In this document: positions 27,640 through 60,014 of the stretch, in pieces | Numbering within the stretch: position 1 is the first letter of the stretch | Layout: each line of letters begins with the position of its first letter | Assembly (NCBI RefSeq): GCF_003885105.1 | Contig: NZ_QWZQ01000008.1 | Location: 1 to 64,000 of the forward strand | DNA length: 64,000 bases | DNA from: Lactiplantibacillus garii | GTDB lineage: Bacteria > Bacillota > Bacilli > Lactobacillales > Lactobacillaceae | Direction of reading: 5' to 3' | Translations under genes and position numbers: made by a program | The notes under the pieces: generated by a model | Databases searched by the model: none | What the model was told of the DNA's origin: nothing | The model's input: the letters and a program-made list of their open reading frames with translations, nothing else

Positions 27640-28167
27640 CTAATTAATTTGATAAAGGCACCACACCATCGACGGTGTGAAACGCTTAATGATTTTTTCA
27701 TTCGTCTGCAGGGTCACATTTTTTTCGTTGGTCAAAACGTAAGCGGCCCCGTTTTGCCGATAAGCTTAGTACGCCAAGTATTTACTGGCACAAGTTTGGA
27801 CACTGACGTGACTGACGACCCGTTCTAACAACTGCGCCGTGGCCGCGTGCGTGTAACCAATCCGGTTATCGGCCCCGATACGCTGGACCACGACGATCGG
27901 GTCCAGCACGGTCATAAAACAGTCCCGTAACGTTAACTGTTCAAGCAACGCGTAGTGGATGTCGCCCCAACCAGCCTTTAACGTTGATGATTTAAAGGCC
28001 GCCGGGATGACTAACTCGTCACCGTGATAACCGGCTAACGTCGTCAAAATTTCCTCAAAGCTGGGATGCCCGCACACGGTTGCTTGGCCCGCGTACTTTA
28101 CCTGGTTATAATGCTCGGCGGCGGCAAAGCTATCGGTCGCCGCCGGCCCTAACGTGTGGATCACCAT
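27640..28167 (-). pseudogene. Prephenate dehydratase-like (BacA-like) gene with in-frame stop
   Basis: The N-terminal reading shows an LGP start and a two-lobe binding-protein pattern like the catalytic domain of prephenate dehydratases and the BacA prephenate decarboxylase family, without an ACT domain; the assignment is by pattern and context. From ATG 28167, 133 residues are followed by TAA at 27766-27768. Reading on in the same frame gives 41 more protein-like codons to a TAG at 27640, directly before aroA. One substitution (TAA from CAA, AAA or similar) would therefore explain the break, and the intact product would have 175 residues. The truncated form may still fold partly. aroA translation could suffer polarity from the 120 untranslated bases. 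Confidence 0.6.
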
Positions 28168-28176
28168 CGCGGCCAC

Positions 28177-29346
28177 CTAATACTGCCGCAGTTCGTCGCG
28201 GTACGTGGCAACTTGTAACCGCAGGCGGTCTAGGTTACTACCGTCAAAGGTCGCGGTCAACGCTTTCGCTAATTCGATTGCGACAACACTTTGGACAACC
28301 AGTGATGCTGGTACGATGGCGGTGGTATCGGAACGTTCCACGCTCGCTTTTTGAACGACCTTGGTTTGAACGTCAACACTTTGTAACGGCTTATAAAGCG
28401 TGGGAATCGGCTTCATTGCCGCCTTAACAATAATCGGCATCCCGTTGGTCATTCCGCCTTCAAAGCCACCTAAGTGGTTACTTAACCGGGACCAACCGTC
28501 CGTCGCGTTCCAATCGATCTCATCCATGACCTGACTACCCAAACGCTTGGCAGCTTCAAAGCCGTCACCGATCTCAACGCCCTTCATGGCGTTCACGCCC
28601 ATGACCGCCGCGGCCAATTGTCCGTCAAACTTGGTATCCCAATTGGTGTAACTTCCTAACCCGGCGGGAACGTTTTCGGCAACCACCCGGATCACACCCC
28701 CCAGCGTATCGCCGGCCTTCTTAGTAGCCGTAATCAAGTCGTGGATCGATTGGACCTGACTCTGATCCGTAATGCGCAAGTCGTTAGCGGTGATTCGTTT
28801 TTGAAGGGCTGCGACGTCCAAGCCCAATTCCGAGTCCGCTGGTAGCTGGCCAACCTGTTGAACGTAACCAACCAGGTGAATGTCAAATTGTGCTAAGAGC
28901 TGCTGGCAAATACTGCCAATGGCCACCCGCATCGCCGTTTCGCGGGCGGAAGACCGTTCCAAAACGTTGCGCAGGTCGCGCTGTCCGTACTTCATCCCAC
29001 CCACCAGGTCGGCGTGACCGGGCCGTGGCCGGGTCACCTTGCGCAAGGTGTTCTCGGCGGTCGCCGGACTAACCGGATCCATAATGGCCGACCAATGCGC
29101 GTGGTCGCGGTTTTTAATCGTGAGTGCTAACGGTGAGCCCAAAGTCACCCCGTGACGCAGGCCCCCGGTCACCGTCACTTGATCGTGTTCGATCTGCTGA
29201 CGGTTGCCCCGACCAAAGCCTCCCTGACGTGCAGCTAAGTTGGCGTTGACAGCGTCAATATCAATTTCTAGTCCGGCCGGGAGCCCAGTCAGGATCCCGG
29301 TCAATTGGGGGCCGTGGGACTCCCCGGCAGTGACGTAATTAATCAT
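28177..29346 (-). CDS. aroC: Chorismate synthase
   Basis: Removes phosphate from 5-enolpyruvylshikimate-3-phosphate to form chorismate, using reduced FMN as cofactor. The 389 residues have the GESHG signature near residue 8, RPRPGHADL near 105, the RSSARETAMR motif near 136 and the C-terminal DTTAVPA-like motif (here SDTTAIVPA). The start overlaps the transporter-mutase fusion gene by eight bases. It is the second gene of the operon. Confidence 0.97.
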   Translation of the reverse strand: MINYVTAGESHGPQLTGILTGLPAGLEIDIDAVNANLAARQGGFGRGNRQQIEHDQVTVTGGLRHGVTLGSPLALTIKNRDHAHWSAIMDPVSPATAENTLRKVTRPRPGHADLVGGMKYGQRDLRNVLERSSARETAMRVAIGSICQQLLAQFDIHLVGYVQQVGQLPADSELGLDVAALQKRITANDLRITDQSQVQSIHDLITATKKAGDTLGGVIRVVAENVPAGLGSYTNWDTKFDGQLAAAVMGVNAMKGVEIGDGFEAAKRLGSQVMDEIDWNATDGWSRLSNHLGGFEGGMTNGMPIIVKAAMKPIPTLYKPLQSVDVQTKVVQKASVERSDTTAIVPASLVVQSVVAIELAKALTATFDGSNLDRLRLQVATYRDELRQY

Positions 29347-30781
29347 GTTCCTCTTCCTTTCCGTGCAGCTGGGCTTGATAAGCCCGTGAATTCGTCATAA
29401 TGGCTTGATAGATTGCTTGTAAGTACGGGGTGTGTGCCATTCGCTGACTACGTTGAGCCACTTGGGACAAGACCCTGGCCTCCCGCTGCTGATCCAAGAT
29501 GGGCAACTGCTCCCGCATTTTTAATTGACCAATGGCAGTCACGGTATCAAAGCGTTCGTTTAGTAGTGCGACAATTTGTGAATCAATTTGATTGATTCGT
29601 TGTCGTTGCTGAACTAATGAGCTTTGCGGGCGCAGTGCCAGCGCGGTCATTAGTACGAGCAAAACACCCGCCAACCCAATCACCAAGTCGAACCGTAACG
29701 CGGCGGCCAAGCTTTGTTTAGATAACCAGCCGGTGATCAACGGGATCGTAAACGAAGCGATACTCCCAAAGGTGAAGTACAATCCGGTCACACCACCCTT
29801 CACGTGGGGGTATAACTTAATGAACAAGTTCAACCCAACTTGCATCACGCCCCCGGCCGCGGTAAACCCAAAGATCAGGGCGGCCAGCATCGATAACCAG
29901 CTCAGTGAACTGTAACTAACAATTAGCAGGGCAACGAGGGAACCAACGTTCATTTCCACCATCAATTTCGTTTCAGCCACGCCCCGGCGTAACAACCAAA
30001 AAAGAACGAACACCCCGCAAATCGAGCCAACACTGTAAAGCGACAACAATCCGTGGGCTAAAACTGGACTGAACCCAAAAGTTTTAGTGACAAATAAACT
30101 GATCCACTGGGTGTACAAAATCATTAGCGCCATTGAGGTGTAACCGTACCCCGCCAGTCCGATTGCCGCAATTAAGCGCCGCGGTTTGGAAAGCTGCTGC
30201 TGCTTAGCCATTAAACTAGGATCCGACTGATTACGCGGTGGAAAAGTCTGCCGGTTCAACAAGACGGCGTTAACAAGCAAAACTGCGGCGGCAACTAGGA
30301 AGGACCAACCGTACCACCAGCCGTTGGAATCCAACAACGCCACTAGTAACGGCAAGAGAAATTCCCCAGCGGAAATGAAAGCTTTTAATAAGACGTTTGC
30401 CGAGCCTTGGCGTCCGCCCATCTCGATAAAAGTGGTGTACGTTCCGGCATCGAGCGCTGAATTGGCAACGCCAGCCAAGATGGCTAATCCGTATGCGACT
30501 TGAATGTTGGTGACGAACGCCATTCCCACGAAGAAAACAAAGTAACTGAACATCCCAACGTTGCAAAAAATCTTACGACCAAAGTGGTCCGATAAATTAC
30601 CGAGAATAAAGTAAGCTAATAACCGACCGATTCCCACCCCAGAAACGACGTAAGAAACGGTTGCCAGGGGTGTTTGCCAGTGTTGGCTTAACGACTGCAT
30701 ATTTTGTGCGAGGATCAATAACCCTAATCCATGCACGAAGTAGTTTAAGTACAAGCTTAGTGAGAGTGTTTTTCGATTCAT
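29339..30781 (-). CDS. MFS transporter fused to AroQ-type chorismate mutase
   Basis: Residues 1-390 form a 12-segment major facilitator transporter, with the loop 2-3 motif GNLSDHFGRK near residue 60. Residues about 395-475 are an all-helical chorismate mutase of the AroQ class: Arg-x-x-Ile-x-x-Ile-Asp, LLNERF, GQLK and the Gln-Gln-Arg-Glu segment that holds active-site residues. The mutase converts chorismate to prephenate in the cytoplasm. The transporter's cargo is unknown; its link to an aromatic pathway suggests a shikimate or aromatic compound. I see no stop or frameshift at the junction. It is first in the operon, with an AAAGGAG ribosome binding site and an attenuator upstream. Confidence 0.85.
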   Translation of the reverse strand: MNRKTLSLSLYLNYFVHGLGLLILAQNMQSLSQHWQTPLATVSYVVSGVGIGRLLAYFILGNLSDHFGRKIFCNVGMFSYFVFFVGMAFVTNIQVAYGLAILAGVANSALDAGTYTTFIEMGGRQGSANVLLKAFISAGEFLLPLLVALLDSNGWWYGWSFLVAAAVLLVNAVLLNRQTFPPRNQSDPSLMAKQQQLSKPRRLIAAIGLAGYGYTSMALMILYTQWISLFVTKTFGFSPVLAHGLLSLYSVGSICGVFVLFWLLRRGVAETKLMVEMNVGSLVALLIVSYSSLSWLSMLAALIFGFTAAGGVMQVGLNLFIKLYPHVKGGVTGLYFTFGSIASFTIPLITGWLSKQSLAAALRFDLVIGLAGVLLVLMTALALRPQSSLVQQRQRINQIDSQIVALLNERFDTVTAIGQLKMREQLPILDQQREARVLSQVAQRSQRMAHTPYLQAIYQAIMTNSRAYQAQLHGKEEEHD

Positions 30782-30811: not shown

Positions 30812-30986
30812 AATAAAAAAAGCCAGCTAGATTCAAAGAATCTAACTGGCTCACATTAAGACGTCTTTAATGCGGTGATTAATTCCAGCTAGACCTTTGC
30901 GTGTCTAGCTGGCCAAGACAAAGATGACTTCGCTAACCTTAGACACGGACGTGTGTGCCGTCCGTATCTACAGTGCGATGCGGACG
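30812..30986 (-). promoter_or_regulatory. Multi-hairpin transcription attenuator of the aromatic operon
   Basis: RNA segments in 5' to 3' order, as plus-strand coordinates: A 30977-30986, B 30959-30968, C 30940-30951, D 30900-30912, E 30885-30894, F 30838-30851, G 30821-30834, then seven Us. Pairings are A:B (9 of 10), B:C (10 bp with one G-U), C:D (8 of 8), D:E (10 of 10), E:F (9 with one G-U) and F:G (14 with one G-U, terminator). Alternating sets A:B+C:D+E:F and B:C+D:E+F:G exclude each other. Segment A begins one base after the leader peptide stop codon, so a ribosome ending translation would cover it and favour termination. Confidence 0.8.
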
Positions 30987-31049
30987 CTACCTAAAGTAAA
31001 CTAAGCCGAAATAATACGCGTTGGTTGGTAATTGTCGTTGCGTCATCAT
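30987..31049 (-). CDS. Aromatic amino acid leader peptide (20 aa)
   Basis: A short ORF with sequence MMTQRQLPTNAYYFGLVYFR and a TAG stop. Five of the last nine residues are Tyr or Phe (codons 12-14 and 18-19). A GGAAAGGAAAG ribosome binding site lies 4-6 bases before the ATG, and a strong promoter starts RNA about 25 bases further upstream. It is followed at once by the chain of alternative hairpins and the terminator. The peptide itself probably has no function; ribosome stalling at its Tyr/Phe codons would report the charging of tRNA-Tyr and tRNA-Phe and switch expression of the chorismate operon. Confidence 0.75.
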   Translation of the reverse strand: MMTQRQLPTNAYYFGLVYFR

Positions 31050-31081
31050 TATCTTTCCTTTCCGTTTAAGTGATTGGTTAT

Positions 31082-31110
31082 ATTAAAGCATTCTCATTTT
31101 AATCCGTCAA
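31082..31110 (-). promoter_or_regulatory. Promoter of the aromatic amino acid operon
   Basis: TTGACG (31105-31110), a 17-bp spacer and TTTAAT (31082-31087) with a TGC extension on the minus strand. It is close to consensus. A further hairpin (31147-31174, CCCGGTCCG/CGGACCGGG) lies upstream without a T run. Confidence 0.85.
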
Positions 31111-59911: not shown

Positions 59912-59927
59912 ATAATCGTTATGTTAA

Positions 59928-60014
59928 GGAGAGTACAGGATTTGAACCTGCGCGCCGGTATTAGCCGGTTCGCCGGATTTCGAGTCCGGTGCATTACCAC
60001 TCTGCCAACTCTCC
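59928..60014 (-). tRNA. tRNA-Ser (anticodon CGA)
   Basis: An 87-nt class II tRNA with a 7-bp acceptor stem (GGAGAGT/ACTCTCC), D loop, anticodon stem CCGGA/TCCGG with loop CTCGAAA (anticodon CGA, reading UCG), a long variable arm (CGAACCGGCTAATACCGGCG) and the T loop GTTCAAATC. CCA is not encoded, and the base after the acceptor stem is T rather than the usual G73. Promoter elements TTGTTC (60052-60057) and TATACT (60030-60035) lie upstream on the minus strand, spaced 16 bp. Confidence 0.96.

Follow-up and report, generated by a model that had tools for sequence, protein, structure and literature searches.

A conserved chain of alternative RNA helices behind a Tyr/Phe leader ORF, a likely ribosome-mediated attenuator of an aromatic amino acid operon

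The operon and its leader

The locus lies on the minus strand of the window, by which we mean the whole 64,000-nucleotide stretch of DNA that was analyzed. A leader region follows rbfA and precedes an operon of aromatic amino acid genes, composed as follows.

29339..30781, minus strand: MFS transporter-chorismate mutase fusion, the first gene behind the leader (Pfam MFS_1 and CM_2)
28177..29346, minus strand: aroC, chorismate synthase
27766..28176, minus strand: prephenate-dehydratase-like ORF (weak assignment), ending earlier than its relatives at an in-frame TAA
24703..27639, minus strand: aroA, tyrA and aroK

The ORF at 27766-28176 looks truncated; the frame behind its TAA still matches that of relatives. 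The dehydratase-like proteins of the window and of loci L146, L148 and L171 could be named only weakly, with a Pfam PDT match for L148 alone and below cut-off, and no solved relative was found for them.

The leader was read directly on the minus strand, from 31049 to 30812, and together with its upstream signals it comprises the following elements.

31082..31110, minus strand: promoter-like TTGACG-17-TTTAAT, read by eye (-35 TTGACG, 31110-31105; -10 TTTAAT, 31087-31082)
31053..31060, minus strand: likely Shine-Dalgarno sequence AAGGAAAG of the leader ORF, read by eye
30987..31049, minus strand: leader ORF MMTQRQLPTNAYYFGLVYFR with its stop codon, 20 codons, with gene-matched codon content in relatives
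30988..31007, minus strand: segment Z within the leader ORF (covariation and RF02863 consensus structure)
30977..30986, minus strand: segment A (A:B pairing)
30959..30970, minus strand: segment B, partner of A or C (chain finder and covariation)
30940..30951, minus strand: segment C, partner of B, D or Z (chain finder and covariation)
30930..30934, minus strand: box C' (AAGTC), partner of GGCTT in Z (Z:C covariation)
30900..30912, minus strand: segment D, partner of C or E (chain finder and covariation)
30885..30895, minus strand: segment E, partner of D or F (chain finder and covariation)
30838..30852, minus strand: segment F, partner of E or G, 5' arm of the terminator (chain finder and covariation)
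30820..30834, minus strand: segment G, 3' arm of the terminator, followed by a T-tract (chain finder, covariation and terminator scan)

The presumed sensing codons of the leader ORF are Tyr12, Tyr13 and Phe14, and Tyr18 and Phe19. Segment Z consists of GGCTT (31007-31003) and TTAGGTA (30994-30988), whose partners are the 3' half of C and box C'. An earlier, sequence-only reading had described a 20-codon Tyr/Phe ORF, a six-link chain of segments A to G and a terminator; all three were confirmed in the window, and the coordinates it gave for the segments were correct. It had also claimed a near-consensus promoter, which is readable by eye but was missed by the promoter scan, which requires an A at position 2 of the -10 element and whose output consisted of two other weak promoter-like sites. 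The terminator scan returned the terminator at 30852-30820 with its T-tract (1 found versus 0.5 expected from shuffles).

The only match in the window at an Rfam threshold was a tRNA at 59927-60014. Two weaker candidates were set aside: RF04312 (trpB motif; 26.4 bits against a threshold of 59, and up to 42.0 in L200), which apparently reflects a shared hairpin-terminator layout, and RF02583 (24.4 against a threshold of 166, E of 0.00055), which was treated as chance.

Conservation of the helices

The chain was analyzed with an independent chain finder to which the segments were not supplied, at three thresholds and with 300 dinucleotide shuffles. The finder recovered the six claimed links of the window at the places listed above: A:B (9 bp), B:C (15 bp with flanks, 12 in the core), C:D (8 bp), D:E (10 bp), E:F (11 bp including G-U) and F:G (15 bp). 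Six links were reached by 0/300 shuffles at any of the three thresholds; the shuffle maximum was five links at the loosest one (7/300) and at most four and two at the stricter ones. The chain score was 151.9, versus 83.0 for the best shuffle at the loosest threshold. The fold z-score of the leader was -7.1, and its minimum-energy state combined B:C, D:E and F:G, i.e., the termination state. Among 54 related loci that were checked (L157 was skipped), 51 had chains above all 50 shuffles. Chains that were not clear of shuffles were those of L213, L227 and L168 (50 shuffles each), L020 (34/200 as high) and L316 (7/100 as high).

Relatives were collected from 23 named loci, a genus search and a family search, yielding 83 upstream regions. 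The family search found a relative at E <= 1e-100 in 105/397 genomes, and 40 of its 77 hits without a locus were fetched. The leader finder accepted only leaders with four or more aromatic residues and with an A:B stem; it found no leader in 7/83 regions (L083, L084, L099 and L105-L108), and 66 distinct leaders were obtained. Two of these (L022 and L082) were dropped as misplaced, leaving 64, of which L103 was positioned by hand; exclusion of L020, L096, L097, L098 and L101 as divergent or degenerate gave alignment A1, with 59 leaders including that of the window. This selection is biased to well-formed members, so that the paired percentages below are upper estimates. Two loci that did not enter A1 carry peculiarities of their own. 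At L083, an MFS gene without a detected leader, a transposase-like coding sequence was seen by eye and the terminator hairpin is left; at L022/L101 the leader looks degenerate, and the MFS gene matches the query only up to a point short of the chorismate mutase part.

Both alternative states are conserved in A1. The readthrough state (A:B, C:D and E:F) had 91.7% of cells paired versus 27-36% when slid by 1-3 columns, with double-sided changes in 16 pairs, and the termination state (B:C, D:E and F:G) had 92.4% versus 27-42%, with double-sided changes in 26 pairs. By helix, double-changed pairs numbered 7 in A:B, 6 in B:C, 3 in C:D, 8 in D:E, 6 in E:F and 11 in F:G, and one further such pair was a terminator loop pair. 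Both E:F and F:G covary, i.e., a mutually exclusive antiterminator and terminator. Segment A also lies next to the leader stop codon: counted downstream from that codon's first base, it starts after 3 nt in 52/59 leaders, 4 nt in six and 8 nt in one. In a second alignment of 33 leaders from other families, which does not extend to E:F and F:G, A:B, B:C, C:D and D:E were kept (87.4% and 90.3% paired versus 26-51% slid).

A further helix is likely, though it is inferred from sequence alone, in which Z, made up of the last leader codons and the stop codon, has C and the following box as its partner. The consensus of RF02863, which distant relatives match, contains a stem joining the end of the leader ORF to the RNA after B. 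In A1 a first part of Z, GGCTTTGC (codons Gly-Phe-Ala) with GCAAAGTC, was 86.6% paired with double changes in five pairs, and a second part, TTTAGGTA with TGTCTAA, was 76% paired with zero double-sided changes; the whole structure was 81.0% paired versus 32-49% slid. Double-changed cells numbered 16 versus 6.0 in shuffles (0/500 as many). The count of five double-changed pairs was equalled in 134/500 shuffles of A1, and slides of -1 and -2 gave as many double-changed cells as the true register (17 and 22 versus 16).

As a stronger test, we paired the Z of each leader with its own C region or with that of another leader (2000 permutations). The mean energy was -14.8 kcal/mol for own pairs versus -12.0 for swapped ones in A1 (z -8.6, 0/2000), and -16.4 versus -12.1 kcal/mol in the second set (z -9.9, 0/2000), with z of -0.4, -2.0 and -1.2 for three controls. 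The same test was weak for B:C and C:D in the second set (z -3.9 and -2.2). Neither the swap tests nor the shuffle tests correct for the relatedness of the leaders, and in the window itself Z is a modest helix, consisting of GGCTT:AAGTC and a 7-mer that includes G-U pairs. The pairing of Z with C would explain why a Gly/Ser codon stands among the sensing codons and what purpose the conserved box after C serves. The sequence-only reading had missed this seventh helix, and its scheme is incomplete in that respect.

Distribution and codon content of the leaders

Covariance model R1 matched 215/397 Lactobacillaceae genomes, in 27/40 genera, at E <= 0.01, and 148/295 genomes of the order. Its four matches among 398 genomes of a phylum sample were the window's own genome, one genome of the order and two that are apparently spurious. 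The phylum-level matches outside the class, L214 and L215, were set aside, no such leader or chain being visible by eye. Model R2, built from the 33 leaders of other families, matched 49/76 genomes of one family, 135/227 genomes of the order at E <= 0.001, and 17/180 genomes of the class, including four from outside the order. The genomes searched with both models include those that supplied them.

The window's genome holds three copies of the leader. Beside that of the window, copy C68 precedes a gene for a TrpX-like binding protein (tail QFAFSFFFR) and copy C114 a class I aminotransferase gene (tail SFYFWYFR); the chains of both were above all 200 shuffles. Each copy suggests an annotation. 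The ABC binding protein behind C68 (L002, 457-1425, minus strand), with its Phe-only tail, may serve phenylalanine rather than tryptophan, and the aminotransferase behind C114 (L305, 196-1386, minus strand), whose leader has Phe, Tyr and Trp codons, is probably an aromatic aminotransferase.

Distinct leader tails were grouped by the gene behind them, which was identified by BLAST against reference proteins. The comparison shows that leader codons track these genes, with aromatic codons before aromatic genes and Ile/Leu/Val codons before ilvA, ilvB, ilvE and genes of branched-chain transporters. Aromatic codons outnumbered Ile/Leu/Val codons in 113/113 leaders before aromatic genes versus 0/16 before branched-chain genes. 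In a composition-blind subset (92/95 loci), for which only position and ribosome site had guided the choice of peptide, the figures were 57/57 versus 0/16. In both counts the leaders before branched-chain genes had branched-chain codons in 16/16.

By individual gene, both Tyr and Phe occur in 46/46 distinct tails before MFS(-CM) genes and in 7/7 before aroC; before aroE, Tyr is found in 10/10 and Phe in 9/10, and before TrpX-like genes Tyr in 33/42 and Phe in 40/42. Dehydratase-like genes are preceded by Phe without Tyr in 3/3. On the branched-chain side, leaders contain Ile and no aromatic residue before ilvA (3/3) and before branched-chain binding protein genes (8/8), Leu, Ile and Val before ilvB (2/2), and Ile before ilvE (3/3, with Phe further up in two). 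Two genomes outside the order show FYFSYF before a DAHP synthase gene versus FFFSDFR before a prephenate dehydratase gene. One counterexample was met, the canonical prephenate dehydratase of L285, whose leader (LYFSYFR) contains Tyr.

Several assignments qualify these counts. DAHP synthase in L316 and L318 was assigned by resemblance; the clear dehydratases by Pfam (L317, L319 and L285) all score below the NCBIfam equivalog cut-off, and the TrpX-type binding proteins and the branched-chain binding protein of L223 below the curated one. The peptides of L213 and L168 were entered by hand in the gene-grouped count and excluded from the composition-blind count. The Fisher test left out the DASS (2), polar-amino-acid transporter (6), lactate dehydrogenase (1) and unassigned (6) leaders, and loci L313-L319, which came later, are absent from it; its p-value is nominal because the leaders are related.

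The sequence-only reading had proposed that homologous leaders keeping the terminator but losing the A-E complementarities or the Tyr/Phe codons would refute it. On the sequence side of this test, homologous leaders keep all six complementarities with compensatory changes, and the Tyr/Phe codons are kept before MFS(-CM) genes. The latter figure is partly built in, as the finder required at least four aromatic residues; the choice of leader by position only agrees with it. The placing of the element in lactobacilli and its restriction to Tyr/Phe proved too narrow, since it also occurs in other families and with Ile/Leu/Val leaders.

Several further genes behind such leaders are of interest in themselves. 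A transketolase (L314) follows a Tyr/Phe/Trp leader (YYYFGWFS), fitting supply of the aromatic pathway; a D-2-hydroxyacid dehydrogenase (L274) follows a Phe-only leader (VFFNSNFR) and is perhaps a phenyllactate enzyme. For the DASS-family and polar-amino-acid-type transporters behind Tyr/Phe leaders (L221, L273, L199 and L208), aromatic substrates are predicted.

Proposed mechanism, rival explanations and known systems

The leader is likely a ribosome-mediated transcription attenuator responding to how far Tyr- and Phe-tRNA are charged; this rests on comparative evidence, without expression or stalling data. The leader ORF, the segments, the covariation of the helices, their conservation and the gene-matched codons are shown by comparison. 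Translation, stalling, ribosome footprints, kinetics, the outcome for expression and readthrough upon scarcity of charged tRNA are inferred. The proposed mechanism has three states, a logic resembling that of E. coli trp, and the RNA segments would fold on a first-come-first-served basis while leaving the polymerase. Without a ribosome, A:B would form and Z would take C, leading to D:E and F:G and a stop of transcription. A ribosome stalled at the Tyr/Phe codons would cover Z and leave A free, so that A:B, C:D and E:F could form; E:F would use up F, the terminator could not form and the operon would be read. When the leader is fully translated, the ribosome at the stop codon would cover both Z and A, giving B:C, D:E, F:G and again a stop. 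The direction of the switch in the sequence-only reading, with stalling giving readthrough and full translation giving termination, fits this anatomy and is supported, with expression untested. Its plain parity, by which an untranslated leader would be read through, is amended: with Z such a leader is predicted by modeling to terminate.

Equilibrium folding of the window's leader with ribosome masks gave the terminator in all seven settings, and the termination state was the more stable one in 59/59 leaders, by a median of 19.4 kcal/mol. The cost of leaving A:B, C:D and E:F had medians of 9.8, 11.9 and 9.4 kcal/mol (path search, upper bounds). As the terminator wins at equilibrium, any switch must be kinetic, through folding in transcription order, and the two-state switch first envisaged is amended in this sense. 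A coarse helix-level kinetic model with assumed rates, meant as a plausibility check and not as proof, reproduced the three outcomes. At k0 1e5 and 50 nt/s the terminator fraction was 0.94 without a ribosome, 0.32 with a stall at codon 13 and 1.0 with the ribosome at the stop codon. Deletion of Z lowered the first value to 0.33, and deletion of A:B, C:D or E:F returned the stalled case to 1.0; each of these four elements was needed. The model switch holds only at slow assumed rates, k0 3e4 to 3e5, and is weak already at 3e5: in the stalled case the terminator rose to 0.66 at that value and to 0.52 at 25 nt/s, and the antiterminator was lost at k0 1e6 or above. Stalls at codons 18-19 led to termination in this model.

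Four other explanations were weighed. One is the two-state chain of the sequence-only reading, with six helices, no Z and an untranslated leader that frees A and is read through. It accounts for the covariation of the six helices, and the modest Z of the window and those Z statistics that do not exceed controls speak for it. Against it, own Z:C pairs beat swapped ones in two sets while the three controls were near zero, the enterococcal Rfam consensus draws the Z stem, and the coarse kinetics minus Z and without ribosome resemble the stalled case; we consider it unlikely. Alternatively, the leader could be a T-box or metabolite riboswitch in which the ORF is fortuitous; in Firmicutes, genes of this kind are indeed under T-box control, as with S. 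suis trpX (PMC9382623). This is highly improbable: no such match was found at Rfam thresholds in the window or 20 related loci, nor anything around the window's leader at E up to 10, and the codons of the ORF switch with the gene.

Arrest by the nascent peptide, in which the peptide would sense a ligand in the exit tunnel as in the TnaC or Erm type, is suggested by tails that are alike between leaders, with a Gly/Ser in the middle and often Arg before the stop. The residues vary by gene, however (IISIIR, LLLISVIR, QFAFSFFFR), no fixed arrest residues were found, and the last residue is variable in A1 (R 31, K 11, S 7, M 4, I 2, G 2, Y 1, Q 1); pairing in Z can account for both the Gly/Ser codon and the AGA-TAG end. 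We regard arrest as very improbable. The same holds for a trans-acting small RNA with an incidental ORF, which would follow the Rfam filing of the enterococcal members: RF02863 is typed as an sRNA gene, and L226, L200, L204, L209 and L206 score above its threshold. The downstream genes that can be named are nevertheless mostly amino acid genes with matching leader codons (six distinct leaders are unassigned), and the transcript of a terminated leader would itself resemble an sRNA.

If the attenuator reading holds, Tyr/Phe, Phe and Ile/Leu/Val genes appear to share a single leader-peptide scaffold within an order of bacteria associated with food, the gut and hosts, and the leader codons predict the substrates of poorly annotated transporters. 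It would also be a natural strand-exchange relay, each link of which is open to mutation and rescue, and it lets one ask how ribosome-mediated attenuation works where the polymerase may outrun the ribosome. The polymerase of B. subtilis is reported to outrun its ribosomes. A bolder reading, which we consider less likely than not, is that of a general, re-codable amino acid sensor of Bacilli parallel to the T-box, in which one ancestral seven-helix scaffold would have been copied to many operons and re-tuned through a few codons, and the relay, as a kinetic first-come-first-served chain, would buy time for a ribosome lagging behind a fast polymerase. If true, strand exchange would answer the problem that uncoupled transcription poses to classical attenuation.

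On comparative evidence the element is real and conserved, and we view it as a new form of ribosome-mediated attenuation, its regulation being inferred. The sequence-only reading knew of no such domino chain in lactobacilli; we likewise recognized no description in the full-text literature searched, where most subscription papers are absent. Aromatic genes of low-GC Gram-positives were treated by Panina et al. 2003 (cited in PMC2494555). The nearest entry is RF02863, "Enterococcus sRNA 2410," which represents the same RNA; relatives that precede aroE and other genes score above its threshold, and its consensus draws Z:C and A:B. It differs in being filed as an sRNA gene and in a printed consensus without the D-G relay. 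No RF02863 match was listed for the window itself, and L228, L213 and L210 match below threshold. Rfam holds part of the family under this name, and RF02863 is probably its terminated leader and not a free sRNA.

For operons of this kind, T-boxes or TRAP are the usual assumption in Firmicutes. The T-box shares with the proposed attenuator the reading of tRNA charging for Firmicutes amino acid genes; it binds tRNA directly, and no T-box match was found for the window's leader. The earlier statement that Firmicutes mostly rely on T-boxes or TRAP must be amended, as leader-peptide attenuators have been reported there: histidine leader peptides before hisZ/hisS* in bacilli (PMC2965389) and the leucine-rich ilv attenuator peptide of S. 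aureus (PMC5794164). These concern other genes and species, and no chain of comparable length was noted in them. The uORFC-13-1 aroF motif, from Acholeplasma and environmental sequences (24 unique sequences; PMC8632094), also has a Phe-codon leader before a DAHP synthase gene and a terminator; it differs in that the terminator and one other paired substructure are described.

The classical counterparts are the trp and pheA attenuators of E. coli, in which ribosome-mediated attenuation involves three pairings. Shared features are a short leader ORF with codons for the end product and a terminator and antiterminator that exclude each other. In E. coli a pairing coding segment also brings about termination without translation; for the window the corresponding Z:C pairing is supported, and this outcome is predicted by modeling only. 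The family described here differs from them by its seven pairings instead of three, with relay steps between ribosome and terminator, by its lineage, and by the use of one scaffold for several amino acids.
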